The position numbers and the translations under genes are program-made. A stretch of 64,000 nucleotides of DNA from Pseudeuparius sepicola (taxonomy: Eukaryota > Arthropoda > Insecta > Coleoptera > Anthribidae): positions 119,340,035 to 119,404,034 of the forward strand of contig OY987298.1 of assembly GCA_963920635.1 (NCBI GenBank). The letters are read 5' to 3'. Shown in pieces: positions 15,211 through 45,081 of this stretch. The notes under the pieces were generated by a model. That model was not told where the DNA came from and ran no database searches. It worked only from the letters and a program-made list of their open reading frames with translations. Numbering within the stretch: position 1 is the first letter of the stretch; each line of letters begins with the position of its first letter.

Positions 15211-15212
15211 TA

Positions 15213-16379: not shown

Positions 16380-16466
16380 TATATGTATGTATGATGCCTA
16401 TAAATCACTTTCGGGGGATATTATTTATGTTCACGCGGAATCAAGAAATAACAGAATTTCCTGTTT

Positions 16467-19479: not shown

Positions 19480-19485
19480 GCCGCG
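19480..19485. repeat. 6-bp target site duplication, left copy
   Basis: GCCGCG directly precedes the left inverted repeat and is repeated exactly at 38365-38370, directly after the right one. Six-base duplications are the rule for Maverick/Polinton insertion. Confidence 0.9.
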
Positions 19486-19560
19486 AGTAGTGAGTCAAAG
19501 CGGGTACGAGTCCAAAATGGCCGCCAAGGTCGTCGTTGTTGCGAAGTCGCGATGGGGTGT

Positions 19561-19800
19561 TCAAGGTCAAGGGGCGTGGCTAGAATAGCTTCAAGGTTAA
19601 TTTCCGAGAACCGCTTCAAGGTTTCTGGGAATTGATGTACAAGGTCAAGGGGTGTGGTTTCCTAGAATAGCTTCAAGGTTAATTTCCGAGAATCGCTTCA
19701 AGGTTAATTTCTGGGAATTGAAGGGGGGCGTGGTTAGAATAGCTTCAAGGTTTCCGCGCTTCAAGGTTGAATCGCGGAGGCTTAGAGGTCAAAGTGTGTG
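19561..19800 (+). promoter_or_regulatory. Array of TCAAGGTYA half-sites with GC/CACCC boxes
   Basis: TCAAGGTCA occurs at 19561-19569, ACAAGGTCA at 19639-19647 and TCAAGGTTA at 19591, 19673 and 19698; TCAAGG variants follow at 19616, 19745 and 19761, and AGAGGTCAAAG at about 19784. TCAAGGTCA is the extended half-site bound by monomeric nuclear receptors of the FTZ-F1/HR39 and ERR types. GGGGCGTGG or GGGGTGTGG boxes directly follow both full sites, and GGGGGGCGTGG occurs near 19723. The array sits 60-330 bp upstream of the start site at 19888, so it probably drives the inverted-repeat gene. Binding is inference from motif match. Confidence 0.55.
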
Positions 19801-19854
19801 GCTTCTGGGAATTTGGGTGGGAAGGCATTTCCATTAGCCCCACCCCTCTAGCTT

Positions 19855-19890
19855 TGATAAAAGACAGAGTTTGCTGTTTGGAGTTTCAGT
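19855..19890 (+). promoter_or_regulatory. Core promoter: TATA box and initiator
   Basis: TGATAAAAG at 19855-19863 acts as a TATA box, and TCAGT at 19886-19890 is an arthropod initiator with its A at 19888, about 30 bp downstream. The predicted 5' UTR is only about 11 nt before the ATG at 19899. The identical arrangement is present inverted at 37960-37995. Confidence 0.6.
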
Positions 19891-19898
19891 AGCCGAAG

Positions 19899-20228
19899 AT
19901 GGCTTGCAGCAAAATGGATTTGGAAACCATCAACAAATTTGGTTGCTTGTCTCAGAAACCGACGGTAAAGTTAGTGGAATTGGATGAAGGCGTGCCGATG
20001 AAAATTCTCTCGGGCAAGGTGGTGCAAACGACGTTCGGGGAGACCGTTTTGCTTGAGTTGGAGGAGAGTGTCGTTTTCCTGCCGAACAGAGTGACACAGG
20101 TGTTCAAGCCGTGCATCGAACATTTTTCCAGTGGAAAATACTCGCTGGTTTACAAAGGACAAGTGGATATGGGGAAAAACAAGGCCAATCAGTTCGAAAT
20201 AGTGGAAAATGTCCCCATGGGGGAATAG
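19899..20228 (+). CDS. Small OB-fold-like protein, left inverted-repeat copy
   Basis: An intact 109-codon gene lies wholly inside the left inverted repeat, with TATA/Inr promoter upstream and AATAAA at 20295-20300. The predicted protein is about 12 kDa with no signal peptide or membrane segment. Residues about 20-90 alternate beta-strand-like segments: VKLVELDEG, then FGETVLLELEES (46-57), VVFLPNRV (58-65) and YSLVYKG (81-87). That order (strand, TxFGxxxxLEL, VFLPxR, YxLxYKG) resembles a family of small insect proteins that I recall as repetitive and linked to mobile or viral elements, and it is compatible with an OB-fold single-strand nucleic-acid binder. The fold assignment is inference. 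It differs from the right copy only at residue 14 (Phe here, Val there). Being intact twice while the interior is decayed suggests selection or gene conversion. The real role is unknown. Confidence 0.75.
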   Translation: MACSKMDLETINKFGCLSQKPTVKLVELDEGVPMKILSGKVVQTTFGETVLLELEESVVFLPNRVTQVFKPCIEHFSSGKYSLVYKGQVDMGKNKANQFEIVENVPMGE

Positions 20229-20885
20229 AAAATTAACATGGAATTCTTCATATAGTAATTAGTGTTATAATCTTGAATGTCATAAAACGTGCTTAATAAA
20301 GGAATAGAATGTGTACTTCAAATAGTCTTGTAATTTGTGTTTTAATCTGTAGAAAAATCATGTGAATCCAAGGTTCCTAAAACTGAGAAAAAACTGAGGG
20401 AGGATTCTAGAATTAGAAAATCATTTCAAGGAAATGCCTTCAGTGTTATGTTGTAAATAAAACAAAAAATTCGATTTCCAAATTTATATTTGCTATGACA
20501 ACGGTATGACTCACAACTGGATTAAGCGATCCGACCTTGAAGTCGAAATTCCGATTTTGGGGGAATAGAAAATTAACATGGGGAATTCTTCATATAGTAA
20601 TTAGTGTTATAATCTTGAATGTCATAAAACGTGCTTAATAAAGGAATAGAATGTGTACTTCAAATAGTCTTGTAATTTGTGTTTTAATCTGTAGAAAAAT
20701 CATGTGAATCCAAGGTTCCTAAAACTGAGAAAAAACTGAGGGAGGATTCTAGAATTAGAAAATCATTTCAAGGAAATGCCTTCAGTGTTATGTTGTAAAT
20801 AAAACAAATAATTCGATTTCCAAATTTTTATTTGCTATGACAACGGTATGACTCACAACTGGATCAAGCGATCCATAATTCGATA
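20220..20885 (+). repeat. Tandem duplication of the gene's 3' UTR
   Basis: The block from GGGGGAATAGAAAATTAACA (20219) to about 20533 is repeated almost exactly at 20560-20885, including the poly(A) signal AATAAA and the distal sequence TATGACTCACAACTGGAT. The right inverted repeat has only one copy. The duplication therefore arose after, or escaped, homogenisation of the two ends. A third partial piece (about 20925-20985) follows. Confidence 0.85.
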
Positions 20886-21100
20886 ACATGTGAGAGTCTA
20901 CAATCAAAATAAAAACTCTTGCTGGAATTTGTGTTTTAATCTGTAGAAAAATCTGTAAGGTTCCTAAAACTGAGGACCCACAAGGGTTCTAGAATTACTG
21001 TAGAAAATATCTTCTAATTCTTTTAATAAAGGACCCAGTATTATGTCAACAGAATATTTCAAACCTCATTCTATCTTTACTTGCTGTAAATTAGACAACG

Positions 21101-21440
21101 GTAATTATCCGCGTGATATGCAAAGTCCTCGCATATCAATCTCAACCTTGTAAAAACCGTTGCTGGACAACATAAATTGTTGCCGTTAAGGAAAATCTTA
21201 ATGTTTCGATGTTGGTTAATATAACTTCAAGTCCATTTCTGTAGCGCTTATTAAGTAAGCCTCCCAATGTCAACCTTAATCGGTGCGCCGGCAAAAGATC
21301 TAATAATGTGTTTATTTAAACAAGTTATAAACATCTCCACTCGATCCCCCGGCCAAACTTATATCTCGGTGTTCGGTAGGCAGGCGGACCCGAATGACAT
21401 CATGTGTCCCGGCTGATATTTTAATTAACTAGCGTCAAAG
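21101..21440. repeat. Interior module R1, copy 1
   Basis: This segment (ATCCGCGTGATATGCAAAGT, then CCGTTGCTGGACAACAT, then GGCAAAAGATCTAATAATG) recurs in the same orientation at 22455-22740 and, more diverged, at 34560-34850. Insertions and deletions of irregular length separate the copies, so no shared reading frame is preserved. It is a non-coding or long-dead module of the large element. Confidence 0.75.
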
Positions 21441-21509
21441 CGAAGCCTTGTTTAATCATACACAGCATTATATTTTATAAACTCATAATATCTGAGTGAC
21501 TCACATAGC

Positions 21510-22330
21510 TTATATTTTGTTATTATATAGCTTGAATTAAAGCAACAGTCTCTGTATATGAATAACCGAGAGTTCGCGGCACTTATGACTAATCAGTGTA
21601 ATTTATATCAATTTAAATATTTGCGGGTTACGTGCGAGTGCTTTAAACGTCTGAATTAAAGCGGATCTGCAATAAAAATGTTTGTAGTAATGTTCTAGCA
21701 TAAAAAACAATCACCAAACATATTTATTAATTACACAAACGGGAGGTGAGCCAATGACAACGTAGGTGTGCCTGCGAAACCAACGATGGGGTGTCTGTCC
21801 ACAAAGATTCGTTTGTCCGGTTTAATAAAGGACTAGAATATTAAAATCATCTTGAATAAACTTGTTTGGTGTTTTATTAGCATTAACATGCTTTCAACGC
21901 CCCCATATCAACACACGAATATTGTAATAGATTGAAACAATTATTGAATCTTTTATTCATTATTTACAAGAACAATTTGTAACTGTTTAAAAGCCTGTAC
22001 CACTGTTGTGCTTTATTACGAATTGAAACTTACCGCTCATCTTAAAAGGAAGTTAGTCTAATTAAAACTTCTTTGAATTGTTTAACGAACGCTACAGTAT
22101 ATACATAATACGACAGCTATCAAAAACAGCAACGTAGCAACAACTCCTAAATGTGATATGCATAACATAGGCTCTGAGACACATCCCACTGTATGACTCA
22201 CATCGATCTGCCGCGGCAAAGATCTGAAAGTCTGAATTGAAGTAACTCCTATTAGAGTTGTTTATATCCCGCGCTGGTATCGATGATAAGTTTATATGTA
22301 TAGTTGGTGGCAAATTAAAGCAAGTGGACC
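21510..22330. repeat. Interior module R2, copy inverted relative to 36200-36740
   Basis: Several blocks (AGCTTGAATTAAAGCAAC, GTAGTAATGTTCTAGCA, TATACATAATACGACAGCT, CAACAACTCCTAAATGTG) occur inverted in the right part of the element (36200-36740). The divergence is far greater than in the terminal repeats. This suggests an older, longer inverted-repeat structure of which only the outer kilobase is still homogenised. Confidence 0.7.
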
Positions 22331-22454
22331 TGCGGCAAAGGCTAAATATTTACATGTGAAAATGCTAAAGTAAAAGACCCATACGGAACCTGAACGAGTG
22401 TTTGTTTTATTCTTGGGTTACATACGACCTCCTCAAGGAATTTTGGGTGGCATA

Positions 22455-22935
22455 ATTATCCGCGTGATATGCAAAGTCCTCGCATTTCAATCTCGACTTT
22501 GTAAAAACCGTTGCTGGACAACATAAACTGTTGCTGTTAATGTGTCAGCGTTGGATAATTTATCAAGTTCATTTCTATAGCACTATTCAGTGAGCCAACT
22601 TCCATTTTGGCTGGTACCATCCCAACATCGGTGTACCGACAAAAGATCTCATAATATGTTTGTTTATACAGGCTATATACATTTGCGCTCGGAAGGCAGG
22701 CGGACCCAAATTATGTGCGGTCGACCTTATATCTCGCGGTGCATTTCTTTTTATTTTATAAGCTATTCACATCTCAGAATGATTATGAATAACCGAGAGA
22801 GTTCAATCGCGACACTTTGTGAATCATCAATTTAAACCACTTTAAAATATTTATGCTTTCAGGTACAAACTTTATTTAAAACTCAGAACTGTTAAGATTT
22901 GAATGTTGATGGAACAAAAAATGTTTATATAAGTG
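22455..22935. repeat. Interior modules R1 copy 2 and R2-related segment
   Basis: 22455-22740 repeats R1. 22770-22935 holds the block GTTAAGATTTGAATGTTGAT plus GGAACAAAAAATGTTTATAT, which returns inverted at about 36215-36260. The order R1-R2 on the left is thus repeated twice. Confidence 0.65.
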
Positions 22936-23957
22936 ACGACAATTTACCTTAAGTAAGAAAAGTTTAAAGCATTGGTAAATAACTTCCTATACACGCGCCC
23001 ATTCATTGGGTCGCCTTAGCTCAACAAACAGGGGTAATAATATATGAAATCTACCTAAACATTGATATATGACACATTCGAATTCAGAATAATTCATGCG
23101 CCTTATATACCGATGTGGTCACCGTAATTTGAACTTTACTTATAAGAGAGCAATCATGAAACATGTTCAGAATTGATGAAATTTAAAAATTAAGTACGAA
23201 ATATGATTCCATTATAGAGTAAAATACATACTGCGTTAATTGGTGACAAGAAATTTGAAGTGTTGAAGTATGAAGTACTAAAATAACCAATTATATAATA
23301 CATCTCAAGTTGATGGACGTTATTTTCTGAAAAAAGGTTTTGACTTTATTAGTGCTATATTTGAATCATAATTAATACATCCTCGTTTTACAAAAAGTTT
23401 TTTCTCTCAGTTTTTTAAAAGAAATGGCTCGTGACATATGGAACAGTTTTTGCCTTTGGTTGATTGAATAAAACACAAAAGTTAAAAAGTTTTTACCTAT
23501 TCATCGTAAAATAGCTCACTGTTTTTTATTTTCACACAAAAGTTCTACTGTCACCTAGAGGTGGTTACTTGAATCTTTATCGGTCCTAAATACCCATTTT
23601 GGTTTCGAAGCATTTTACCTCACATGGTTTTCTCTTTGAAAAAGGTAGGGGGCAAATAAAACAATATTATTATATCTTTTATTTACCTATTTCAGCCAAT
23701 AAGAACTATTTAAACAACTCTAGATATACAATAAAGGTAACATTGTCAATAAACCCATTGTAGCAACACTTACGGCCTCAGTGCAGCATTATGCATTGGT
23801 TAGCGGTCTTTTGTTTACAGATAATCTAGATAATCATAAAGTGATGTCTCATCGTACACATTTTAGGTTTACATTGCTCAGTAAATGATTCATATTGCTT
23901 TTAGATTGCTTTTTTGCTTATATTTATCATAACATCAGTGATAAAATTAAAGCTATC
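22936..23957. other. Interior non-coding stretch
   Basis: AT-rich, stops in every frame, nothing recognised. Confidence 0.35.
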
Positions 23958-25070
23958 GTTTATTTCGAGGAGTTCATTTCTGTTTAAATATACGATGACC
24001 CACACGCTGTACAAGCTAAACGGCCGCAGTTCCATATAATTTAGCTAAATTACGAAGTACGACTGTTGACTGAGACTCGCGACGGTCGAAAGCAAAGCGT
24101 ATAAACTACTTGATACGTAGGTTAAACAATAAGTACTTAAAATTGTGAAGTGTAGCATAAAATGAAGGGTAACAAAATTCTGTCATGTTGTTTTTCATTA
24201 ACCTACTTTTTTAATCGCTGAACAAATTTGAGATTTTTTTTACAGCTATATTAAATAAAAAACATACAAAGTTAATAAATCTTTTATTACTCAAATACAC
24301 TTAGGACTAAAATAATCCGAATATGTCACATCTTTGTATAAATTCTTGGTGCTACATGGAATACATGAGGTGTTGGGTTTGTTACTCCGTATATTATACA
24401 TTTATATTACAGGTATGGTTTTGTATTCATTTCAAATACGGTTTTTATATTTACACAAAATTACTCTGATCTAATCCGAGACGGCTTCCTGAAGAGGGAT
24501 TAATTCGTTCAAAATATAGCCATTTCAGTGCATTAGCGTGACTTCTTGATTTTATAATTGTTGGTGTATAGATAGGAAACCAATTTTCACTAAAGAACAT
24601 CGGTAAGAGTACACAAACTTCTTCCAAGTACAACAAATGCGTCATTGCTTTTTCATAAGTTATTCAGCTTCATTCATTCGAGTAGGCTTACTTTTATAAC
24701 GTGTCCCAACCTTTTATTCCGAGGAGATCATTTCTGTTAAATATACGATGACTCATGTGCCATATCAAACGGCCGCAGTTCCATATAATTGAGCTAGTAG
24801 AAGTACGACTGTTGAATTAGGCTCGCGACGGTCGAAAGCAAAGCGTATAAGCTACTTGATACGCAGGTTACAGAATAAGTACTTAAAACTGTGTATAAGA
24901 CAGTATACGGAAAATTAGTGTTAATGTGTATACGAGAGTACCGAAAATCATTTCAACAACCATGTTTTTAAAATGTAGGGCGCCAAAATTCTATCATTAA
25001 AATACAGCCTACTTTTTTAATCGCTGAACAAATTTGAGATTTTCTTTTACAGCTATATTAAAATACAAAT
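23958..25070. repeat. Interior module R3, two direct copies
   Basis: 23958-24260 and 24713-25070 share long blocks: CATTTCTGTTTAAATATACG, ACGGCCGCAGTTCCATATAA, CTCGCGACGGTCGAAAGCAA, TACTTTTTTAATCGCTGAAC. The copies differ by many substitutions and indels. The shared blocks show no common long reading frame. They contain GC-rich palindromic bits (CGGCCG, CGCGACGGTCG) within AT-rich DNA. Confidence 0.75.
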
Positions 25071-27667
25071 AATTAAAAAATGTAGACATCTGAACCATTT
25101 TATAAGTAACAAAATGTAAATAATGGTGATGTTTGTCATAATTTCTCAAAAACAGTTTGAAGTCATTAAAATTTAAATGCATGTCTGAAGAACAAAATTA
25201 ATTACTGGATGGTTGAAAAACACAAAAAGCAACTTCAGAACGTATTTCAATTTGTAAACAATATTATTGAACAACATCCCCGTATTTTATGGAATTATAT
25301 AATGTGGATGCTGTTCGCGTTCCGACGCAGGCTAGTTGTTTATTTAACATTTCGGGACGAGCCCCACTGAAACAACGTGCTATTTCATTGCCCTGACTTG
25401 TTTTCCAGCAACACTTAATAGCAACAGATTATTTTGCACAGCGGTTCGTCGGCGAATCGGTCAACTTTCAAGCGACCTTCGGTACTTGAGATTATACAAG
25501 GCGGTAGATCACTGAAATTAATTCTTAAAAACCAGTAGATGGGTAATTTAAAATACGCATTTGCTTTGCCCCAGTTCAGTTACTTGAGACAATGTAAATT
25601 GTGTGATATATTAGTTTTTGTGAGTTAAAATAATGCGATCTCCAAAATCGTTTGTATAATATACATACGATATATTACTTAGCTTTTTTAGTTAGAGGTA
25701 TTTTATGAAACCAGGAAAATCTCCATCTAAACCGAAAACACCATCCCCTACTACGTAATTTCAACCTATATGCAATCGTGTTCATTTCTCAAATATAGGC
25801 TTGCTTTTTATTTTTTTAAATGGTTTGGGTCGTGGATGTCCAACCTTAGACACCTCTATCAACCGATAGTCAACAGAGACCAATAAACCATCGACTTTAG
25901 TCAATTTCGGGTGAATGTTCAGCTAGTCAATTCCAGAGACTGGACATACACAACCCAAGTCATTTAAAGAGGTTAATATTTGTCATATATTTATACGTGT
26001 TTAAATAGCGGTTGGTAGTGAGATACATGCGTAGGCCCTCTATAATCCGATGCTATTATCTCGAGTGCCGCGTTTTATATAAAATATTATTTTAAACAGT
26101 AATGTTTATTTAAATTTTGGCGGCTTTTAGGAACCATTGGTCAGTGTTCGACATTAAATATCTATATACAAGCAGATGGCACCACCGATACCAATTTAAG
26201 TTTTCATCCAAGGAACAATTTTACTACAAAAATATGAATTAAATATGAAATAAAACACGCATTGGCTAAATTACTAGAGTTCATTCAATCCTTAGGGGCA
26301 TATGGTGTCAAGCAGCATCTTTTTGCTGCCCTGTACACTTAGACATTTATAATGGGTAACTATTTGCTACTTTATAACAGTTTAATCAGTTTACTTGCTT
26401 ACGTTGCAATTTTCAGTACGCTCACGAATGTAGTTTACAATTTAGGGTACCATGTAGTCAACCTTTTCCACTAAATTGACGTCATCATTTAAACGTAAGC
26501 ACTTGACGCTAAGGCGGGCCGATTCTTATTTTAAATTATGGGTAAGCATAACCGAGGATGCCTCTTTAAATAACTGTTCAACTTCTATTTATGTTTACGA
26601 TGCATCAAACCGGTGTACAATTAAATTGAAGATATGGAAGCTGTGAATCTGGACGCACTGTTTATAACACAGAGCACAGAGGCGAGATATAATTTGTAAA
26701 CAATTCTCAACCAGAGTACCCAGAAGCAGCTTGTACGTGGGAGGCACACTATTTTGGTTTCGTTGTATGAGAAATTGTTTTTTTAAAACAGAACTTTAAA
26801 AAATTTATGAGAAACTTTTTTAAGTGAATGCTAGTGTTTCTTGTTGGAGAGAATATTTTCTCATTTTAAATGCACTTTCACAACATCCAACACCTAAATT
26901 TAAGAATAGTGTTATATTCAATTACCCATAATTCCAAATTTGAAAATAACATTATATTCAAATAGAAGTAATAAATATGTATACCTAATTCTTGGATCAA
27001 AACAGTTTCAAGAATTGAAATATTAACGGCATTGTCTTAAAAGAAACAACTGTTATTGTTAGTTTATACTTATATCCAAGTACATCATCCATATTAAGGA
27101 AATCAAATTATAGAAGTATTCAACCAATAATTTTAGTTAGAGCGTGCGGCTACACACACCTCACATTGAAGTTCACATTTGAGCAAGCGATACCATTCCG
27201 TATACAGTAGATAGTTTTTATTTTACGCGTTCTGCAGCACTGTGGCTTCGCGCCAGCCATCATGATAAAAAACACAGACAGTTCTAAAGGTCAACTAGTT
27301 CATGGTGCGTTGGTTATGCTTATGTAACACTAATAACCATATTTTCATTATTTGTGATCTAAAAATTTCATTTTGTTTCGGTGCTCACACTTAGTCGCTC
27401 TGTACATACAACGGTTACATTTATGACACATAAGTTATGTTTATATTATTTTTATTTTCACATGTATATGACAATACGTAAGTAGGTACCTATAGGTATA
27501 GCTTCTTAATGTTACAGACTGAATAATTATAATATATTATCCTATATTTTTAACATAAAATTTTATGTATGTAAAAACTCTTTATTTCGTTTAGATATTG
27601 TCTTCTATACCTACCTGTTAAAATTCAATATCATGTGATAATCACACAACCCTTAAATTGACACACA
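25071..27667. other. Interior non-coding stretch
   Basis: No intact gene. A segment at about 26440-26700 (GGTAAGCATAACCGAGGATG and following) is a diverged relative of 28310-28680 (AAAGCATAACCAAGGTTGC), giving module R4. Otherwise the sequence is AT-rich with short GC-richer patches (about 25340-25500, 27140-27260). Confidence 0.4.
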
Positions 27668-27878
27668 ATGACTTTCATAAAAACAGACGTTTTAAAAACA
27701 ATTATCCAAAAAATTAATCGATGAAATACTTCAAAACAAAGTAACCAAAAACAACCAAAATTCAAAATTGGTCAATGAATTAAACAGCAAAGAAATTATC
27801 TACAAAGCTAAAAAATACATAATGACAAAGTTATTTAATAAACAAAATTCCTTGTTCCGACTAAAATCAAATATATAG
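27668..27878 (+). pseudogene. Possible frameshifted small reading frame
   Basis: An ATG at 27668 opens a frame that stops after about 17 codons. A +1 frame continues from the A-rich run near 27710 for over 50 codons (blocks KLIDEILQNKV and KEIIYKAKKYIM) to a stop at 27878. The join at an A-run is where a frameshift is expected. The combined frame would be a lysine-rich helical protein of about 70 residues. I recognise no family; it may be chance in AT-rich DNA. Confidence 0.25.
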
Positions 27879-30800
27879 ACAGGTAGATAAGAAAACTAGA
27901 ATTATAGTTGAATACAAAAGAAGAATCAATCCTATACCAATAAAACAGAATTAGCACATCACTGAAAACTCATTAGGTACATAATTTTAATTTGAGAACA
28001 ATTCCAATGATTTCAAGTAACAAATTACAAAAAAGACCTATCAATCCTATAAGAGATACTAATAAAACCTGAAAACACATAGTCTTAATTTGAGAAGACT
28101 TCCATAATTTCAATATAAAAATTACAAAAAGACTAATTAATTGAAATCAACAAAAACAATATAAACAAAAAAAGATGATTGGAGTTCAACTATATATTTG
28201 AGTTACCTAACCGCTCTTAGGGTTATACTTGCTTCATCTTCCCCGCTTACACTGACCTGTTCCAACTTGTAATTTTTACTTTAAATCGTTTCAAATGACT
28301 CATGTTATATGGTAATTTAGGGGACTGTGATTACAATCAACCTTTTTCAATGCGCTAGTCGAATGTTTACATTTCCAGTCTGATTCTGTTGACAATTTTG
28401 TGAGTATGAAAAAGCATAACCAAGGTTGCAATTAAGTGGATGTCTCAAGCTAGCGTTATGTATGTGCTATAACCGTTGATTGTTCCTTCTTCCATCCATA
28501 TAACTAAATCGGGGGCAGTAGAAAGCCGAGCTGGAAGTGCTAAAATAATAAACACACCAAGAGTGTCGGTATTTACATTTGCACAGCAAAGACAAATGCT
28601 ACACGTGGAGCGATGCCTAATGAACCACTGAATCGGCTATCAACCGGTTGAAAATTATATACTTAAGAGGGCAAACACTTGTTAATACATAGAGGACCAA
28701 GTTCAAGAAAATAAACATTTCAATGAATTGATTTTTCTAGGGTATAAACTAACCGATAAAATTATATTATTATATTAATATGTCACAAAGCACACTATTT
28801 TATAGTTATTTAAACACAAACACATTTTTTCATATTTTCTGTCATTTCTTTATGATGTTTTACAAACCTCTGGGATTTTTTTAGGTAGATATATCAAAAA
28901 ATTGTCTCTCTCAAACGTGATGGTAACATTTGAAGAAATAACTTAAAATACCAACCTTAAAAGTTTTATACACAAAAGACCTAAAAAATTGGAAATGTTA
29001 CTTTTATGTAAAATTTGTTAACAGAAAAATATAGAAACTTTGTTGGTGACCTGTGAACATCTATTATTTTGTATAGAGTGTTCTGGGAATACTCTATGGG
29101 TTGAAATATTCGACTAAAAATGTAGAGGCAAACCTGACAGTAAAAATTGTTAACCATGAAAGAAAATATCAACCTTTAATATAAGAAATACACCTCTGAA
29201 ATCATAAAAACAAAATAAGTTTTAATTCATACAGTTTATACAAATGAATAGAAATTTGAATATTTTTGATAATGATTACCTATACGAAATTGTAAAATTG
29301 TATTTTCTCATATTATTCAAGGAGCTTTAAATAATATATATATGAATGTCATAGTCAGCTATCTTGGAAATAAGTTTTCTACATACTTGTCAACTTTTCA
29401 TAGTTGTTTGTTATTTTAAAAACCTTCATAGACGTTAATCACAAGCTTAGTCAAAAACTCTCATCTGCAAAGGTACTAAAAAATAGTACAAGATAATAAT
29501 TCATAATGTATCCAAAGAAAGGACTTTAAAAGTGGGGTATAACAGAGTAATATTTTGATAATAAAATATAGGGAGAAACCAAAATCGCTCACTAACCAAA
29601 GGGGTTCTATATGTTTCTCTTAGCAAATTTTAATGAATCGTATTTGGTGATATATGTCTAACCTGGATGCTGATTATATTAAAGACCCGAGCATGACGTC
29701 ATATTTCATTGTTGTTTACGGACTGAGGTGGTGCCACTCGATAAAAAAATGGCGTCTTATAGGGTATTCTGTGGTTATTGGTAAATCAGTTACTGACGTT
29801 TAAAGGGTCCCAAATTTTAAATATCCAGCTTTATTACGATTTGCCTTCTTTTTACGGTAACGAATTGTCTTTGCGTCCAGTATTTAGCAGTTTTATCCTA
29901 TTAACACAGATTTTATAGGTAGATTTGTGTTAACATGAAATTTAAATGCACATGAAGAAAATGGTACACTAAGAATAAGAAATTGTCAGTATTAATTTTA
30001 TACAGAAAATGCAAAATAAAAATTTATGAGTAATATGTCTTTTTTAAGTGAAAGGTGCTAGTGTTTCTTTTTGGAGAGAATATTTTCTAGATTCTAGATT
30101 TGTTTGTGATAACATGAAATTGTAATGCATATGACCACATTAGATGAATTGCAGATGAATAAACACTATTTTAGAATTATGGGACGATCAACCGGCTGCG
30201 AAAATTCTAGATATTATTTTGGAAGAGAATTTTGTAACGTATGTAAGAATGAAAATAGAAAATTTTTAGCTCCAAAGCGAACCACATACCATATAAAAAA
30301 ACTGAAAAATCTAATGTGTTTTTTGCTTGCACTACAACTAGCCATGAACTTCATTTCGAACCAAAAGGTATACCAAATATAATAATGCTTTTTTAGACTC
30401 GCTTTTCTTAGGAAAATGTATGGAAACATGTCATGTGAACTTATCAAATTATAGAGAGACCTAACAAAGAAATATTTTATTTTGAATATATGGATAACAG
30501 ATTTACATGTTTTTATTTTATAGAAGATTCTGCAACAATGGTAACATTAATCCACTGTGTAAATTTGTTTCATCATGTGGCATCAGTGGCGATCGTTTGA
30601 AACAGCGCTATACATAGGTTTTTAATATAGTGTATAGAACTTTTTTAATCAAAGTATTAATAGTTTAAATTTCATGTAATTTACTACACTCTGTGTATTA
30701 CTCTGGTAAAAATATAATTTTATATGGTGCTACCAAGTACATTTTTCTCAATTTTTCACTTATAACTAGTTTTTCTCTCAAATTATATGAGTTAGTATTT

Positions 30801-31160
30801 ATTCTATTTGAATTTATAATTTAATAAGTACTAAGTATATTTTCCACAGGTAACTGCAAATTAACCATTTTACATTGTTCTTATTTAAAAATATGTTCTC
30901 ATATACAGGTCAGCTAGCAACTTATTTCTCTTAAAATGAGTTTCAAAAATTGAAACATAACTACACTTCAGAAAATTAAAATTTACTCACATAAAGACCT
31001 GTCATTTGCATAAACTTCCAAATTCCCCCAAACTTATGACATAACTCTTAATTCAAAAGGAATATGTTGTACACTACAGGTGATTTTTGAGGTCTTAATA
31101 CTGTTATAACGTGGGGAATGGATCTCCCTCTTTGCTGACATGAGGTTTTTTCATAACATT
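27879..31160. other. Interior non-coding stretch
   Basis: No intact gene recognised. It includes the R4 relative at 28310-28680. A frame at 30125-30382 (85 codons with a CNVCKNE pair of cysteines) has no recognisable domain and is doubtful. Confidence 0.35.
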
Positions 31161-31461
31161 CTTTATTTACAACGTCTTATGCTCCAGCGATCTCCCCCAA
31201 ATCAAATTGTTGATTATATTCAACATAGAAAAAATTTTCAACTCACACATGCCTCTTATTTATATTGTTAAGAGACATAAAACTTTTTGGAGGAGCTATA
31301 ATCATATGCGTCTCAGGATATAAAAATGCTCGGTAAATAATGGTTTTTGTCAATTCCTTGGGATAAAGCTCATTCTCAACCGAGAAACCTTGAATGCCGA
31401 ATACAGCTTTTTTCACAGTAGCATTTACTAGCTTAAATGAACTGTAGGTACAGCACGGCAT
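31161..31461 (-). pseudogene. Decayed reading frame of unknown family
   Basis: A minus-strand frame from 31461 is open for 72 codons and contains AVFGIQGFSVENELYPKEL followed by IIAPPKSFMSLN. It stops at 31243 and then stays in the same frame past single stop codons (VENFFYVEYNQQFDLGEIAG). Continuation across isolated stops is the mark of a once-coding sequence. The pattern of a GIQGF-like start, KEL and a PPKSF block reminds me of uncharacterised repetitive proteins of insect genomes; this is memory-based and weak. It may be a former cargo gene of the large element. Confidence 0.4.
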
Positions 31462-32567
31462 TTATATCATGTTTATACCATATAGAGACTTTAAACAAGC
31501 AAGCGTTATCCGAAAACCCGCACTCTGTTTCATTTCTCATAGCAACAGTGTTCATTTAACTGTTTTTAATGTGAGCACTGAATTGACCCATCTAAGCTTG
31601 TATATGTTTCGAAAGCCGACAAAAACTTTCGATTTAGCAGGTCGCTGAAAGTTTCAATTTATACAGTTACCCGGAGGCAACGCTATATTTATAAACAAGA
31701 AAATACTATTCAGTGAACAACAAAGTAGGAGCGGATACCTTGTAAAAGCCTTGATTATGTACCGGGGCTTTGAATTGTATAATTTTAAAAGTGTAGATTC
31801 TGAGTGTTAGACATTTTTTCTCGAAACTATAATAGCTATAAAATAAAACACATTTCAGAGCAACATAAAATATTTAGCAATCGTTCGAAGACTGCAAAGC
31901 GTTAGGTTTTAAGGTTTGCAAAATGTTTTTTGTACAATAACAATACAATGTGCAGTAATTTCGCAATATTACCACCAGAGACCCCAGTACTAGTGGATTA
32001 AAAAGCATCATTTTAGTTAAGTTTTGGAGCCTTCATTTTGTTTTTATTTGTATTATTAATATTTCTGCCTATGGTCATGACTTGAATTATTTAAGATACA
32101 TATTTAATAATAATTGATAGGTTTTAAAATATCGCTAATAATTCATAAATCATGTACTAGAATTTATTTTGTAAATAATTCAAATCCTCTATAGAGAAAA
32201 GTTTTATATAGGTTGGTAAATATTTTTAAAAATCAACACTCTGGGTTTCACTAGTTTCTTGGTTCGGTGGATTGTTACATTATCATTGTTATAAAAGAGC
32301 TGTCCTATCGACGCTCAATTTCTACATGTATGTCTTATGCTTTTTCGCAGAAACTAAACTCATAATACGTCCAGTCCAGATATAACTGCTATTAGTATAT
32401 ATGGTTATGATTGTATAGTCATTTGTGCTCCGACTGTTCTCGAGGATAAAAGTTCCCTTGAATTATCAAAGTTAAATAATGTGGAGTTCTTAATGTCACA
32501 AATTTTCTGAATAGTTATCGCAAAACAGGTTGTTTGAATTTCCTGAAAGAGATAATTCAACGTAGGA

Positions 32568-33029
32568 ATGGAGACAGTTAAAAATACCGACAACGTGGAG
32601 ATCAGATTCTTTTTTGGTGGACAAGCAGTAGACAAAATAAGACAAGAAGTTGGAAGAAATGGTTTTGTAAGAAACATGTTCGAGCAATGGAGTCAAGATA
32701 GGAAAATATCATGCTATATATTGTATGTTAATGCTAAGCCTGTTTCATTTGCCCTAATGTCAAAAATGGATTTTGATCCTTTAAAACAACACACCAACCC
32801 AAAAAATCTCAATTTGATTTTTACACATAAGGAATATCATCGAAAAGGATATGCATCAAGACTAGTGGATCATCTTAAGAAAAATAATCAATTTACGGCT
32901 TTCTGTTATAACACCAATTCAGAAAAACTTTTTAAAAAATGTAATTGTATTTGTTTGCGTTGTTTTTCCTACAAAATTTTATTTGAACCCAACACAACTC
33001 ATCTCAAAAATTTGGATTTATTGTCATAA
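32568..33029 (+). CDS. GNAT-like N-acetyltransferase
   Basis: An intact 153-codon frame begins with ATG at 32568. Residues about 50-66 (YILYVNAKPVSFALM) form the typical GNAT beta-strand pair. Residues about 82-103 form motif A: LNLIFTHKEYHRKGYASRL, where HRKGYA matches the acetyl-CoA loop pattern (R/Q)xxGx(G/A), with His in place of the usual Arg/Gln. Residues 115-126 (NTNSEKLFKKCN) fit motif B. The probable role is transfer of an acetyl group from acetyl-CoA to a small molecule or protein amine; the substrate is unknown. AATAAA follows near 33171. It is convergent with the next gene, tails about 235 bp apart. Base composition is AT-rich like its surroundings. The second half (Cys-rich, 124-135) is less typical. 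It is the only interior frame with a recognisable domain. Confidence 0.7.
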   Translation: METVKNTDNVEIRFFFGGQAVDKIRQEVGRNGFVRNMFEQWSQDRKISCYILYVNAKPVSFALMSKMDFDPLKQHTNPKNLNLIFTHKEYHRKGYASRLVDHLKKNNQFTAFCYNTNSEKLFKKCNCICLRCFSYKILFEPNTTHLKNLDLLS

Positions 33030-33264
33030 TCCTCTATGATACAGTAAAAAATTAGACGACATACGATGTCAGATACATATAAGCATAATAGACATGACAA
33101 GAGAAATCTACATTTTACACAGGTAACCCCACTCAATTCCTTGTATTTGTTGCTATGGATAATATTTTAAATAAAAGACTTAACTTTTTCAAAAGTGTTT
33201 TATTTGCTCACTGTACACAGCTACTACAAAATTCTACAGTTTTTCCATACCAAACAGAACATTT

Positions 33265-33582
33265 TTATTTTCTTAATTCTAAAGGTAAAAATTGTTGTAT
33301 GTTGTCTAAGTAGATTCCCAAATCATATTTTAATAATAAGTTACACAGTTGTTTTATAGAAATATTCCCATCTAGGTAACTTCTGCAGGCTTTTAACCCA
33401 TTTTTATATTTTTCATAATGTTGACGATGTGATTCTATATCGTCATGCACTCTTTGGGTTAACTCTAGTAGGGCATCTATAGTACAAGCTTGTAGTTCAT
33501 CTCTTAGGATCTGAATACTTGAAGCTAAATCTGTCGGGTTTGTCCATCTTTTTACATTGGTAATATAAAGCTGTTCAAACAT
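33265..33582 (-). CDS. Unknown 105-codon helical protein
   Basis: An intact minus-strand frame starts with ATG at 33582. I do not recognise the family. The sequence is amphipathic and probably mostly alpha-helical: residues 17-60 (TDLASSIQILRDELQA, then IDALLELTQRVHDDIESHR) and 75-100 (IKQLCNLLLKYDLGIYLDNI). There is no signal peptide or membrane segment. A poly(A) signal on the minus strand lies at about 33200 (TTTATT on the plus strand). It is convergent with the GNAT-like gene and like it lies well inside the large element. Being open over its length in AT-rich DNA, with a good start and poly(A) signal, supports a real gene. Confidence 0.5.
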   Translation of the reverse strand: MFEQLYITNVKRWTNPTDLASSIQILRDELQACTIDALLELTQRVHDDIESHRQHYEKYKNGLKACRSYLDGNISIKQLCNLLLKYDLGIYLDNIQQFLPLELRK

Positions 33583-33602
33583 GTTGCTATGTTAAAGACG
33601 GA

Positions 33603-34480
33603 TGGCTTTCTAATTTAATTTACTAAAAACGGGTTAGTTTTATACTTCTCTCAATTTTCACCGTAAAAGTTATAAAATTCTGTGTAGTTGGGTAATCGTC
33701 CACCAGTTGTTATTTTTAGTCATTAAATTATCTCTACCCTGTCACGGAAGATGGTCGTTTCTAACAGTTTCACAGTTTTGATATATTTACGTTTTATAGT
33801 TTTGCTCTCACCAACCGTGTTATTCATTTGTTTTTAAATTTATATGTATATTTAGACTTGTAATTAATATTTAAGAACAATTCCCCAAATTTATGGTAGA
33901 AATTAATTTTTTTTCTTAACATGTTTATATTCAAATATGACAAATTATTTGTGTAAAAAAATAAAAACACATTATGTATTATAAACTTAGAGGCATGTTA
34001 TAACTCCTGTTACCTAGTATTGCTGTTTGATACATCCAGAAAAGTAATCTAGCATTATACCTAGCGCTAACTAAGTCTATTAATCAAGGTTACCTTATCA
34101 GATATTCTGTGATACTAAACCGTTACATTTTTGTTTTTTCGCTCCTGCTTTCTAGGCACTAGCACTTAAAATATTGAAGCCTTCTTATATTTAAACGTTT
34201 TGTTCCTCGTAAGAAACCAACTTACATCATATTATTCAAACATGGTCTAAGGTTGATCTTGTTTAGTTTATATTAAGAAAGTTCCAAAAGTCTTCAAAAC
34301 TTCATTGAAACATTGATTTGGAATTCACATTTTCCCCATTTCAGGTCAGATACAACCTTTTAACTAAATATTTTTAACATACAACTATTACGTTTAACAA
34401 AATCAACTTACATCAACTGTTTTATAATGTAGTTACAACAGTTTACCTTAATATAGTGTCACATAAACTACATCTTAAAC
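33603..34480. other. Interior non-coding stretch
   Basis: AT-rich; nothing recognised. Confidence 0.35.
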
Positions 34481-34850
34481 TCAATTTATGCTTACAAGTG
34501 CTGTGAATATGATATAAAGCACAGCATCAGTTTTGTTTAAAATCAGGTTACGCTCGGCGAGAATATATTTATATTGATCCAACCGCTGCATTGCCGCCTC
34601 CAGCCTTACAAAAGCCGTTGTTGGACAACAACATAATTCGTTGCTGTTTGTGTTGAATGTTTCGGCGTTGGATATAGCTTTATATATCTGCTTCTGTAGC
34701 ACCATTAAGTAAGCTAACTTCGGTCTCTCGATCCCCGCCGGTAAAAGATCTAACGACCGCACATGTTTTTGTTTATAGGAGCGCGCTAAATACAAAGCAC
34801 TCGGCCGTCTTCAAATTCACGCGTGGCCGCTAAGATATAAATTATTTCGT
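34481..34850. repeat. Interior module R1, copy 3, with minus-strand open frame
   Basis: This is the third, most diverged copy of R1 (CCGTTGTTGGACAACAAC, GGTAAAAGATCTAACG). Here the minus strand is open for about 100 codons (34795 to 34481) but has no ATG at its start. The other two R1 copies have stops and indels in the matching frame. Either this copy preserves an ancestral gene or the open frame is chance. I call it a repeat, not a gene. Confidence 0.5.
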
Positions 34851-35430
34851 TCGATGCTACGTTATTCATAATCAAATAAGGACAATAATTTTATTTACAG
34901 ATTGTTGAAAAGTACAAGTTCTCTACAAGTACGTCTTATAACTTTTCTAGAATATTTTTATGAGAAATTATTCATAATTTTCTGAAACTTGTGGTTTTAA
35001 CCAACAGTAAATAAAGGTGATAATTTTATCGTTACATGCATTTTATGACTTCAAAATTTTTTTAACTCTATGGCTTTATTTGCCAAAATTGTGAATTTTC
35101 TGAACCTTGTGGTTTTATCCTTCTTATTAGCAAGTGTTTAATTTTGTTCAATATTTCAGCAGTGAATAAGAAACCTGCAAAATAGTATACATATTTTAAG
35201 TGTCAACAGGTGTTTAGTTTTCGATAGATTTTTACGAGAACATAAAAATATTTACTTTGGAAATATTTGAACGGCAGTCCTAATTTATTTCCCCACACTC
35301 GTTTATTTACATATTCGTTAACTGAGGCTTGCCGTATCCACTAGTTTATACGCAGACTTAGATTTCGGACGCTGCAATAAACAGTATTCATTAAGATGTT
35401 AGTAAGCTGGACCTCGATGAAGTCTGTTAC

Positions 35431-36101
35431 CTAATAATTTCTCGAAACCCATTGCTGACTGGTTCTATTCATATAAACTTTAAATTCAAGCAACTCTAAG
35501 AGTTTATAAAAATTCATGTATGAAATACGAGTGGGTTTCAATTCGTAATGAAACACCGACATATGTTTTATTTGCAACTGTAAAAGCTTTCTATTGAAAG
35601 TGATCTGGCGGTTAGAAAACGTCTCGCACCAACTTTGTAGCAAATTTGTTCTGGGTTTTTGCCATCAAATATGAAAACGATTCAAATGCTCGTCTCGGAA
35701 AGTGGCCCCTGCTGTAGAAACTGATCTGCGCAAGTAGATGATTATACAAAGACAATTTTATTATTAAATAACCTTGTAGTTAATACTTTTTAAAAATAAA
35801 ACTACTTTTAGCCTACTGTATTTGTTTTATTTACTTAAAACGAGATATGTATAATACTTAACACACTATGTAAAGTTTGATCCATTAATTTTATTCTATC
35901 TTTGAATCGTGTTTGATCCAAAATGTTGTCTTCTGGTTTTCTAGCCTTTTGATACGCGAAGGACCATGCAACCATAATATGTCTTTGATTTATAGTTTCA
36001 TCAAAAGTTACATGTTTCATGATTGCTCTCTTAACTAAAGTTAAAATTATGGTGACTAAGTGATATTTAACGCTGAATTCAATAGCATTCAGTTGTATCA
36101 C
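35431..36101 (-). pseudogene. Possible decayed reading frames
   Basis: Two minus-strand open stretches (36101-35835 and 35643-35431) have protein-like composition (for example HVTFDETINQRHIMVAWSFA and MSVFHYELKPTRISYMNFY) but no recognised domain, the second lacks an ATG start, and an interrupted region lies between them. They may be remains of one former gene of the large element. Weak evidence. Confidence 0.25.
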
Positions 36102-36189
36102 ATTTGCTCTGTTTGTTTAGCTAAGGTGGTTCCCGATGAATGCAAGCGTGAAGGTTTTGCAGCGGTCGGGTCCAGCTTAGTAAAATCTC

Positions 36190-36740
36190 AATGCAAATTT
36201 CTCTTATACCTATTATATAAACATTTTTGTTCCATCAACATTCAAATCTTAACAACTGTGAGTTTTAATTTAAAGTTTCACTTTCGCATGTAACCCATAA
36301 ATATTAAGTTAGTTTATACTGGACTTGCAGCGGTCGCTCAATGATTCATAAAAGTGTTGCGACTAAATTGAGTGTTCACATCACATTTAAACATAGTACG
36401 TTGCTTTAATTCAAGCTATAGAATTACGTAACGCGTAGTTTACAAAAGGCGATCATAAAGCGGGCTTGCATTAACACTGGCCGCTCGTAATGTGAGTCAC
36501 ACAGTGCCTATGTTAGACATACCACATTTAGGAGTTGTTGATACGTTGCTGTTTTTCAGAGCTGTCGTATTATGTATATACTATAACGTTCGCCACCGCA
36601 GAATAATAAAACAACTCTAATCGATTATAAAACATTAATTTTCATGCATATGACTGTGTTCTAATTCGTAATAAAGCAATTTGTTTGGTGACTGTTTTTT
36701 ATACCTTGCTAGAACATTACTACATTTTTAGAAAAAAAAA
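36190..36740. repeat. Interior module R2, right copy (inverted)
   Basis: It carries the reverse complements of the blocks listed for 21510-22330 and 22770-22935, in mirrored order. Together they form a diverged inner inverted repeat of the 18.9-kb element. Confidence 0.7.
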
Positions 36741-37277
36741 CAAACAACTTTAATTTTCTGAAACTGTTTTTCGAACAGTAAATAAAGGACATTACAAGTT
36801 TTATGATACAAATCAATGCTATACACAACGTTTGAATAACTGACCCCTTTACTGTTAAACCGTATAGTTCTTATGTCAACAGTTAAAGATTGTTGATATT
36901 AGATAAAACTTTCCCAAATTAGAATTACAACCCAAAAGTCCCTGACAAAATGACCAGAAACCTGCTGAAATCCCAGAAAACATCCCAGGTTCCCCGTTAC
37001 ATGCTAAAATTAAATCCTCTTGGGTTTTTCCTGAATTTTCAGTTTTCATCCTTTTAATATTCCAATAACCAATGAATTTTGGTATCCTTAGTTCTACGAG
37101 GATCTGTGTTGCAATTAGGTCCCCTATTTATTCACAACATAAAAGTGTTTTCTATTCCAAGATTTTTTCCCCTATGGTTAATTTTATATTCCCCATTAAA
37201 AAGAGAACATGACAATTTTCAGTCCAACACCGTATGAATGGGTTATTTCACAACAGAGCACGTTACTGTCATTGCTA
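36741..37277. other. Interior stretch unique to the right side
   Basis: No gene. I find no matching sequence at the mirrored position on the left, where the duplicated 3' UTR lies instead. Confidence 0.35.
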
Positions 37278-38364
37278 TCGAATTATGGATCGCTTAATCC
37301 AGTTGTGAGTCATACCGTTGTCATAGCAAATATAAATTTGGAAATCGAATTTTTTGTTTTATTTACAACATAACACTGAAGGCATTTCCTTGAAATGATT
37401 TTCTAATTCTAGAATCCTCCCTCAGTTTTTTTAAGGACCTTTTTAAGGGCCCTCAGTTTTTTCTCAGTTTTAGGAACCTTGGATTCACATGATTTTTCTA
37501 CAGATTAAAACACAAATTACAAGACTATTTGAAGTACACATTCTATTCCTTTATTAAGCACGTTTTATGACATTCAAGATTATAACACTAATTACTATAT
37601 GAAGAATTCCATGTTAATTTTCTATTCCCCCATGGGGACATTTTCCACTATTTCGAACTGATTGGCCTTGTTTTTCCCCATATCCACTTGTCCTTTGTAA
37701 ACCAGCGAGTATTTTCCACTGGAAAAATGTTCGATGCACGGCTTGAACACCTGTGTCACTCTGTTCGGCAGGAAAACGACACTCTCCTCCAACTCAAGCA
37801 AAACGGTCTCCCCGAACGTCGTTTGCACCACCTTGCCCGAGAGAATTTTCATCGGCACGCCTTCATCCAATTCCACTAACTTTACCGTCGGTTTCTGAGA
37901 CAAGCAACCAACTTTGTTGATGGTTTCCAAATCCATTTTGCTGCAAGCCATCTTCGGCTACTGAAACTCCAAACAGCAAACTCTGTCTTTTATCAAAGCT
38001 AGAGGGGTGGGGCTAATGGAAATGCCTTCCCACCCAAATTCCCAGAAGCCACACACTTTGACCTCTAAGCCTCCGCGATTCAACCTTGAAGCGCGGAAAC
38101 CTTGAAGCTATTCTAACCACGCCCCCCTTCAATTCCCAGAAATTAACCTTGAAGCGATTCTCGGAAATTAACCTTGAAGCTATTCTAGGAAACCACACCC
38201 CTTGACCTTGTACATCAATTCCCAGAAACCTTGAAGCGGTTCTCGGAAATTAACCTTGAAGCTATTCTAGCCACGCCCCTTGACCTTGAACACCCCATCG
38301 CGACTTCGCAACAACGACGACCTTGGCGGCCATTTTGGACTCGTACCCGCTTTGACTCACTACT
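37278..38364. repeat. Right terminal inverted repeat of the 18.9-kb element
   Basis: It is the reverse complement of 19486-20533, near identical. It carries a small internal duplication at about 37422-37466 (the CTCAGTTTTTT block repeated) that is absent on the left. It ends in ACT at 38364, directly followed by GCCGCG. Confidence 0.9.
37622..37951 (-). CDS. Small OB-fold-like protein, right inverted-repeat copy
   Basis: Mirror copy of the gene at 19899-20228: 109 codons, identical except Val instead of Phe at residue 14. Start ATG, promoter (TATA at about 37987-37995, initiator 37960-37964), upstream nuclear-receptor-like array (38050-38289, with TGACCTTGA at 38281-38289) and poly(A) signal are all retained. 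With divergent promoters at opposite ends, both genes are transcribed inward. Conservation of the protein in both ends, next to a heavily decayed interior, points to recent homogenisation of the terminal repeats or recent mobility. A single-strand nucleic-acid-binding role is inference. Confidence 0.75.
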   Translation of the reverse strand: MACSKMDLETINKVGCLSQKPTVKLVELDEGVPMKILSGKVVQTTFGETVLLELEESVVFLPNRVTQVFKPCIEHFSSGKYSLVYKGQVDMGKNKANQFEIVENVPMGE

Positions 38365-38370
38365 GCCGCG
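38365..38370. repeat. 6-bp target site duplication, right copy
   Basis: GCCGCG, identical to 19480-19485. Removing the element would join CCTGGC-GCCGCG-ATCTGG as the empty site. Confidence 0.9.
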
Positions 38371-39077: not shown

Positions 39078-40625
39078 CAGGGTGTCCCCTTTTGGGTGTT
39101 TTTCTCAAAAATCTCGGTTATTATTAAAGCTAGAGGGTTGCGGTTTTCACGTCACTGTACTACTTTTTTGAGAGGAATTTGGGGGACCAATCAGATTTTA
39201 GATAAGTTTTATAGTTTCAGCGCATTGGGGCAGAACTGAAATTTTCGATTTTTTGGAAACCTCTCTCCTGGCTACAACTTATATATATCGACAAATTTAA
39301 TCAACTATTTTTATAGATTTTTTGGCGTAGAATCGAATGGAATAATTGGTTTTTTGGTAGCGTTAATAGTTTTTGAGATATGCACCAAAGTTATATATTT
39401 TTTTTAAATGGAAACCATAGTTCATATCTCAAAAACTATTAACGCTACCAAAAAACTAATTATTCCATTCGATTCTACGCCAAAAAATCTATAAAAATAG
39501 TTGATTAAATTTGTCGATATATACAATGTGTCCACGGATTGAGTGCACGTGGGGTGTAAATGACAAAAAAATTTTGAGTTGAAATTTGAGCTTCTGGGGA
39601 TAAGCCCTGCTTGGTTTTAAACTAATTTGTGACGTAATTTTACTTTCGAAAAATCACGTATGCCTTGAGAATTTTGAAAAAACTAATTTTCCACATCAGT
39701 AAAGTAGGTTTTACGACAAAATGTTTTTAAGGAAACTTGTTCAGAATGAAGAACTGAGTAGGTTTGCGAAATTTCGAAAGTCTAGGCCTACCTTGATTTT
39801 TTGGCGTTTTTTCCCACTTTTCTTTAGAAAAGTGCAGTTTGTGTAGCTTTCACATTAAAATGTTCTTAAGAAAACTTGTTCAGAATGAAGAACTGAGTAT
39901 CTTTGCGAAATTTCAAAAGTCTAGGCCTACTTACTACTATTCTGATTTTTACGAGTTTTAAATTTTTTAGCAGAAAAAAATCAAAGTATACCTAGGCTTT
40001 TGAAATGCTTTCACACCTATCCAGTTTTTCATTGTGAACAAGTTTTCTTAATAACATTTTAATGTGAAAGCTACACAAAGTGGACTTTTCTAAAGAAAAG
40101 TGGGAAAAAATGCCCAAGAATCAAAGTAGGCCTAGACTTTCGAAATTTCGCAAACCTACTCAGTTCTTCATTCTGAACAAGTTTCCTTATTAACATTTTG
40201 TCGTAAAACCTACAGAAAGGGCACTTTACTGATGTGGAAAATTAGTTTTTTTCAAAATTCCCCAGGCATACGTGATTTTTCGAAAGTAAAATTACGTCAC
40301 AAATTAGTTTAAAACCAAGCAGGGCTGATCCCCAGAAGCTCAAATTTCAACTCGAAAATTTTTTGTCATTTACACCCCACGTGCACTCAATCCGTGGACA
40401 CACTGTATATATAAGTTGTAGCCAGGAGAGAGGTTTCCAAAAAATCTAAAATTTCAGTCCTGCGCCAATGCGCGGAAACTATAAAACTTATCTAAAATCT
40501 GATTGGTCCACCAAATTCCTCTCAAAAAAGTAGTACAGTGACGTGAAAACCGCAACCCTCTAGCTTTAATAATAACCGAGATTTTTGAGAGAAACACACA
40601 AAAACACCCAAAATGGGACACCCTG
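39078..40625. mobile_element. Foldback element E with a nested element
   Basis: The ends CAGGGTGTCCC/GGGACACCCTG are flanked by TA. Without the nested insertion (39524-40405) it is a 666-bp near-perfect palindrome centred near 39403: the arm with TAAAGCTAGAGGGTTGCGG and GTAGCGTTAATAGTTTTTGA is repeated inverted. It contains no gene. The family resembles the other CAGGGTG elements. Confidence 0.85.
39524..40405. mobile_element. Nested palindromic element inside element E
   Basis: It runs from CAATGTGTCCACGGATTGAG to the inverted CTCAATCCGTGGACACACTG and is inserted at a TATA site of element E with TA on both sides. It is 882 bp, palindromic around about 39965. Arm blocks such as GCGAAATTTCGAAAGTCTAGG are shared with elements A and D. 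The nesting shows it moved after element E. Confidence 0.85.
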
Positions 40626-44985: not shown

Positions 44986-45081
44986 ATTTTGTCTAAATCA
45001 ACTAACCGAAACTTGGATAAACTTCCGCCAAACACTTTGAACAGCAAGGCTAAAGGCAGTGACTTGTGACAAAGAGTGTCA

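Follow-up and report, generated by a model that had tools for sequence, protein, structure and literature searches.

A gene-poor, Polinton-sized element that has recently multiplied in the beetle Pseudeuparius sepicola and shares its ends with a coding Polinton family

We describe an 18,879-bp mobile element in the genome of the anthribid beetle Pseudeuparius sepicola, which lies in a 64,000-nucleotide stretch of contig OY987298.1 (assembly GCA_963920635.1, positions 119,340,035 to 119,404,034 of the forward strand; hereafter the window, whose numbering is used for the element throughout). In our assessment this element is a non-autonomous, decayed derivative of the Maverick/Polinton group that is mobilised in trans by a coding Polinton family of the same genome and whose ends have been re-capped with those of that family (probability about 0.85). 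We refer to the gene-poor elements as class A and to the coding family as class B or family B; class A is most likely a parasite of coding Polintons with almost identical ends. Its ends and duplications, its recent spread, its coding partner and the mosaic composition of its termini are direct observations, and they are set out below together with a small gene that lies within each terminal repeat (the terminal gene).

The boundaries of the element are sharp. It starts at 19486 with AGTAGTGAGTCAAAG, the same letters, inverted, close it at 38364, and a perfect 6-bp duplication, GCCGCG, lies on either side, exactly as claimed in an earlier interpretation made from the letters of the window alone (the sequence-only reading). 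The two arms match at 99.7% over 922 columns, beyond which the repeats extend to about 20888 and 37273. That reading had put the arms at about 1.05–1.09 kb, which holds for the right arm (~1.09 kb) but not for the left, which reaches ~1.40 kb because of a 342-bp tandem duplication inside it (20218–20874). Its argument that size and duplication fit a Maverick/Polinton stands, given the 18,879-bp length, the 6-bp duplication, the AGTAGT ends and the ~1.1-kb repeats; the hallmarks found are those of Polintons generally, namely a 6-bp duplication, an (AGT)2//(ACT)2 end motif, long inverted repeats and a length of 12–25 kb. Vertebrate Mavericks show 6-bp duplications, the (AGT)2//(ACT)2 motif, repeats of 46–1,447 bp and lengths of 12.7–24.6 kb (PMC8097293), and the window element is like them in duplication size, end motif, repeat length and element size. 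By contrast, intact vertebrate Mavericks carry eight (or seven) core genes (PMC8097293), and the window element carries none.

Elements with the same ends recur across the genome. Using the first 301 bases of the element as a query and scoring the best 40 of 460 candidates, we found terminal matches of 99–100% identity that form 16 pairs, 18.3–19.65 kb apart (18,278–19,650 bp), on eight contigs. These pairs make an assembly artefact an unlikely source of the ends, and the 99.7% identity of the arms together with the recurrence of the element excludes a chance origin. Ten paired elements were taken as half-pieces, five of class A and five of class B; the five class A elements are 99.2–99.98% identical to the window element over the pieces compared, indels aside. 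The window element and a copy on C2 are 99.979% identical across 18.9 kb and stand between different target-site duplications; copies so alike (99.98%) in distinct insertion sites establish recent transposition without enzymes of the element's own. A search with an interior stretch specific to class A (29200–29700, 501 bases; best 40 of 54 candidates scored) located at least 33 places, the window included, that match at least 451 of the 501 probe bases at 78–100% identity. Seven of these matches are at 100% and six more have one identical lower score; such groups of equal-scoring matches indicate that class A has spread in several waves. The sequence-only reading had proposed looking for same-ended elements elsewhere, and both the 16 end pairs and the 33 places with class A interior, as best-scoring matches, answer to that proposal.

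Perfect 6-bp duplications flank all nine class A elements for which both ends were read, and these comprise eight different 6-mers, which speaks against a strict target preference for GCCGCG. That 6-mer occurs twice among the nine, at the window element and at C1:104813577–104813582 (104.8 Mb), where the flanks are different; either coincidence or a weak target preference would explain the pair. Structural variants are also present. One class A copy of 14.7 kb has a left repeat of only 356 bp, 99.4% B-like, and keeps its perfect duplication, and at C6:26.41–26.42 Mb a class A-derived element contains interior sequence duplicated in inverted orientation (2,579 bp, 100% identical), which seems to be a terminal repeat that has expanded.

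The coding partner is found in the same genome. Five class B elements of ~19.64 kb have in common with the window element only ~0.8 kb of repeat, at 93–96% identity, and outside the relict patches considered below the B interior does not align with the window element. Domains above Pfam cut-offs in B are an rve integrase, a double jelly-roll (DJR) capsid protein, an A32-type ATPase and a PLA2-like domain; a match to adenoviral protease falls below its cut-off. A 1264-aa frame spans two pieces, which were read apart; among 7977 sequences scored against its C-terminal half, 4293 are relatives at E ≤ 1e-10. Many of these relatives are named DNA-directed DNA polymerase or carry PF03175, and the closest are beetle proteins; searches of Pfam, NCBIfam, PHROGs and PDB with both halves yielded no name. 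We take the frame to be a DNA polymerase of the PolB type, partly from its motifs and partly from its named relatives. Seventeen B open reading frames (ORFs), those for the capsid protein and the packaging ATPase included, are open over at least 95% of their length in four or five of the five copies. An integrase query (124 of 5387 candidates scored) gave at least 125 matches, the first 57 rows of which are open 322-aa frames without stops, and six of the seven class B elements with both ends read have a perfect 6-bp duplication. Family B is thus like the window element in its ends, terminal gene, duplication size, overall length and the similar order of the relict patches, and unlike it in having capsid, ATPase, integrase, polymerase and protease-like genes. 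A second Polinton family, B2, whose integrase is 74–75% identical, accounts for seven rows among the integrase matches listed; one B2 copy (C1:68.89–68.91 Mb) has the terminal gene at both ends and an interrupted polymerase frame.

Inverted pairs of the terminal gene separate the two classes. The best 150 of 2357 terminal-gene candidates, with the gene needed at both ends, form 51 such pairs: 15 contain a GNAT acetyltransferase gene and no integrase, 33 an integrase and no GNAT gene, three neither and none both. This classification used 123 of the 125 integrase rows, two split rows being omitted, and one of the three pairs with neither gene encloses class A interior (probe 29200–29700).

The terminal gene is present in coding Polintons of this genome as well as in class A, which overturns the suggestion of the sequence-only reading that a promoter-driven gene at both ends marks a non-autonomous class. 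Its reality is argued from conservation, because its length of 109 codons is within chance expectation (95th percentile 123, second-order Markov model); the gene is under purifying selection. Upstream lie an ATAAAA and a TCAGT, which we take to be its core promoter. All 23 repeats in which the gene start is present have both motifs, spaced 29–30 apart in 21 of them and 23 in the other two. Single-sequence searches with the terminal protein against a protein database, phage records, viral contigs, PDB sequences and PHROGs gave nothing usable; a four-sequence profile found 11 relatives, those of the beetles Gonioctena, Psylliodes and Diabrotica among them, and the closest come from beetles. The fold predicted from the single sequence was poor (pLDDT 42) and was not used. 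The predicted fold that was used is OB-like and nearest to phage single-stranded-DNA-binding proteins (SSBs), with scores that are modest for solved structures; we regard the protein as SSB-like by prediction. With the SSBs of protein-primed phages (PRD1 P12 and the phi29/Bam35 group; PMC8276246) the terminal protein has in common its predicted OB-like fold, a length of ~100 aa and a protein-primed type of replicon; sequence comparison with these SSBs detected no similarity.

In other families, non-autonomous members tend to be short. Among the 51 pairs, by contrast, the estimated length (gene-to-gene distance plus 1,250) is 17.5–20.5 kb in 12 of the 15 class A pairs and 29 of the 33 class B pairs, and no pair is shorter than 17.5 kb. 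This hints at a length constraint on packaging or replication, which would account for the kept Polinton size. Class A might, further, be a satellite that depends on an active polintovirus-like element. It would then be a genome of full size but with almost no coding content, integrated, replicated and perhaps packaged in particles by B, and it would survive by repeatedly exchanging its termini for those of whichever helper lineage is active. Its length would be held near Polinton size by capsid capacity, and each terminus would keep the SSB-like gene because that gene moves together with the ends. The large size of nearly non-coding class A elements (16 end-to-end pairs of 18.3–19.65 kb) and the maintenance of open capsid and packaging ATPase genes in B are consistent with this proposal. 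The 14.7-kb copy, which lacks the left terminal gene and is the one exception to Polinton size, is not: it has a perfect duplication, so the size limit is not absolute. In addition, a list restricted to the best 150 of 2357 candidates, with the gene at both ends, could miss short derivatives. We put the satellite proposal forward tentatively and think the odds are against it.

The window element and the coding family have ends in common, and these ends are mosaic. Compared with a young B element, the right repeat of the window has 0 substitutions in 558 positions (one 5-bp gap) and the left arm has one, at the site of a phenylalanine/valine (F/V) difference between the two copies of the terminal gene. 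Further inward, the right repeat differs from young B at 12 of 159, 7 of 92 and then 47 of 96 positions. We compared site patterns using six further repeats whose inner sequence is of A type; five belong to A elements and one to a pair with neither integrase nor GNAT gene. In the outer part (1–560), the window agrees with young B against the older repeat at 8–43 sites and the reverse holds at 0; in the inner part (561–820), the window agrees with young B at 5–6 sites and with the older repeat at 19. This contrast gives Fisher p values of 2e-4 to 5e-12 in six of six comparisons, values that are descriptive because the sites are linked and the cut at 560 was chosen from the profile. At C1:88.8 Mb, an intact TTTGTG duplication encloses a class A element whose left end is of the B 106-codon type (a single difference from a B end across 293 inner positions) and whose right end is of A type (0 of 262 to another A). 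Two repeat types are likewise mixed in seven B pairs, the alleles being sorted by frame length only. Ends have been exchanged between A and B, and exchange during co-replication is the mechanism that we favor. Identity between the two repeats was rejected as a clock: the left/right F/V difference is inherited in three of three copies of the window subfamily with both ends read.

Near-identical outer ends could also result from selection on protein-binding sites rather than exchange. Across gene-carrying repeats, the terminal gene shows 0–3 differences in its first 147 coding bases (19899–20045), synonymous sites included; this stretch thus varies less than the adjoining 213 bp of non-coding DNA, which has up to ~20 differing sites, and a DNA- or RNA-level constraint on it is possible. 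However, at 8–43 outer sites the window element sides with young B against older A copies that were once mobile, which shows that function does not fix the outer sequence; there are, moreover, elements that combine an A-type end with a B-type one. We consider selection on binding sites an improbable explanation for the shared ends.

The interior of the element offers no enzymatic means of movement that we could recognize. A Pfam scan of 143 interior stop-to-stop ORFs of at least 38 aa, with shorter pieces and spliced frames outside its scope, found only a GNAT domain below E 1e-3 and no match to polymerase, integrase, ATPase, protease or capsid. When family-B ORFs were searched against the element by tblastn (E 1e-3), the matches were limited to the terminal gene, a non-coding frame in the terminus and a single fragment of 70 aa. 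Together, these searches confirm the lack of polymerase, integrase, ATPase and capsid genes that the sequence-only reading had described. Because PolB, integrase, ATPase, protease and capsid genes of its own, by which Polintons are recognized, were not found, the element is not classed as an autonomous Polinton.

The two longest interior ATG-to-stop frames have 153 and 105 codons; the corresponding 95th percentiles under a second-order Markov model are 132 and 102. The GNAT domain (Acetyltransf_1) scores 26.4 bits against a cut-off of 20.7. Its gene had been called intact, which it is not: the window subfamily lacks 47 bp at the 3' end. In the copies read, this 3' end is changed in four members of the window subfamily, the gene is frameshifted in two other mobile copies, and it is open in three other full-length ones; an open 146-aa frame is found in 19 rows elsewhere in the genome. 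The gene is dispensable for movement, because two mobile copies are frameshifted and four altered, and it is thereby ruled out as the driver of mobility. The 19 rows that keep the frame open counter a reading as plain junk, and the gene may once have been useful to the element; its substitutions, zero synonymous to three non-synonymous, are too few to decide on selection. A separate, very young high-copy element carries a GNAT gene ~72% identical to that of the window (C1:60418000–60418700 and 39 other places), and the best 40 of 250 candidates for it are all ~100% identical over 701 bp. The 105-codon gene of the sequence-only reading has fared better, its frame being open in 11 of 11 locus rows (10 distinct places); a regulatory role is possible, as a guess.

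Class A could be autonomous by an unrecognised route if the terminal gene, the GNAT gene or the 105-aa ORF encoded a new mobility protein, and the terminal gene and the 105-aa ORF are indeed open in the copies read. The terminal gene, however, is common to coding Polintons, the GNAT gene is broken in two mobile copies and altered in four, the copy without a left terminal gene still has a perfect duplication, and no A ORF resembles a nuclease or transposase in Pfam; autonomy is very unlikely.

When the A interior was compared with B at the DNA level by a sensitive search, 17 matches reached E ≤ 0.01; reversed B, the control, gave none. The 17 are 63–96% identical, the longer ones 68–74%. The larger patches (31485–31210, 28374–28232, 24582–24249 and 23149–23039) follow the order of B when A is read backwards, and others are out of order or inverted. 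In protein comparisons the one conspicuous match is to part of the 162-aa gene that follows the capsid gene (E 1.7e-18 over 70 columns). The order and decay of these patches indicate that class A is a decayed, rearranged relative of B and not a simple deletion of it. The interior further carries old, diverged inverted and direct repeats (for example, 22828–23212 against 35966–36321, 65%), of which the inverted ones look like remains of a once longer terminal repeat. The earlier description of a non-coding interior is therefore right about the missing core genes and wrong if taken to mean an interior free of Polinton traces. Degraded core genes in Polinton order, which were to mark a dead Polinton, are met as faint traces, but that conclusion is mistaken because the decayed form has itself multiplied recently. 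That a dead Polinton was copied solely by segmental duplication or assembly error is hardly credible. The decayed interior with Polinton traces and the near-identical copies would fit, but the copies lie on different contigs in differing flanks, with perfect 6-bp duplications in all nine cases (eight different 6-mers) at AGTAGT ends.

Taken as a trans-mobilised derivative, class A would have as its interior an old, rearranged and decayed Polinton whose ends were kept or re-acquired from family B. B would supply a protein-primed polymerase, an integrase and probably the SSB; these proteins, acting on the shared outer ends, would copy A as linear DNA, which would then be integrated with a 6-bp duplication. 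Strand switching or recombination within the repeat could occur while A and B are copied in the same cells, and because the two share ends while co-copied, A would be re-capped repeatedly with the ends of the active B lineage. The sequence-only reading had envisaged a giant non-autonomous element of Polinton type that might be moved in trans, and this fits the end motif, the duplication, the copies at new sites and the coding relative; we infer the dependence in trans, the replicative step and the time and place of end exchange from sequence comparison. Several points weigh against this account. The action of B proteins on A is likewise deduced from sequence, and class A codes for three small ORFs, of which the 105-aa one, without known function, stays open, so that self-help is conceivable. 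The mosaic could have arisen by ordinary gene conversion between chromosomal copies, and the p values for it are descriptive, as stated above. Further, the genome counts rest on lists of best-scoring matches, and one B element (C1:126.96 Mb) has no matching duplication.

Table 1. Features of the class A element in the window (window coordinates).
Feature	Position	Strand	Remarks
Whole element	19486..38364	.	18,879 bp; AGTAGT...ACTACT ends
Left target-site duplication	19480..19485	.	GCCGCG
Right target-site duplication	38365..38370	.	GCCGCG
Left terminal inverted repeat	19486..20888	+	enlarged by 342-bp tandem duplication
Right terminal inverted repeat	37273..38364	-	
Outer ~560 bp of repeat	19486..20045	+	no substitution in 558 compared positions against young coding Polinton
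TATA-like ATAAAA (19857) and TCAGT initiator (19886) before terminal gene	19857..19890	+	
Terminal gene, left copy	19899..20228	+	109 aa from first ATG; 104 aa from conserved MDLE start, 19914
342-bp tandem duplication	20218..20874	+	restricted to left end
Diverged old inverted-repeat remnant	22086..23212	+	partner 35966-36592, 65-90%
Relict patch, right subterminal region of B	23039..23149	-	68%
Relict patch, region behind B polymerase gene	24249..24582	-	72-80%
Relict patch, around start of B polymerase gene	28232..28416	-	70-73%
Relict patch, start of 162-aa gene after capsid gene in B	31210..31485	-	69% DNA identity
GNAT acetyltransferase ORF	32568..33029	+	C-terminus changed by 47-bp deletion relative to other copies
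105-aa ORF	33265..33582	-	no known function
Partner arm of old inverted-repeat remnant	35966..36592	-	
Terminal gene, right copy	37622..37951	-	V instead of F at one residue

Outside the element, the window holds a tandem array at 16923–17396 (122-bp unit, 3.9 copies), pieces of a Tc1/mariner-like transposase on the reverse strand at 44017–44997, as judged by eye, and other inverted repeats, for example at 39517–40412 and 15209–16383.

Miniature inverted-repeat transposable elements (MITEs) and Pack-MULEs keep their ends, have lost their enzymes and are moved in trans by a relative. They are mostly short or contain pieces of host genes, whereas the window element is ~19 kb long and contains decayed Polinton sequence. 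Pack-MULEs are also covered in PMC6431247. A literature search of titles and abstract starts, Repbase and Dfam lying outside it, found no description of a trans-mobilised or non-autonomous Polinton/Maverick, and the filling of genomes with defective Mavericks is called perplexing in PMC8097293. The element described here makes this question concrete and testable, because a gene-poor Polinton of full size has recently multiplied in a genome where a coding family with the same ends is abundant. The case separates what is needed of the ends from the roles of the proteins, as one copy integrated although one of its ends was only 356 bp long, and it presents ends that are traded between coding and gene-poor elements, with a conserved gene, SSB-like by prediction, inside the inverted repeats. 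If the satellite proposal were true, class A would correspond, within an animal genome, to a helper-dependent satellite, and if its length is held by packaging, this would be indirect evidence for the existence of Polinton particles.

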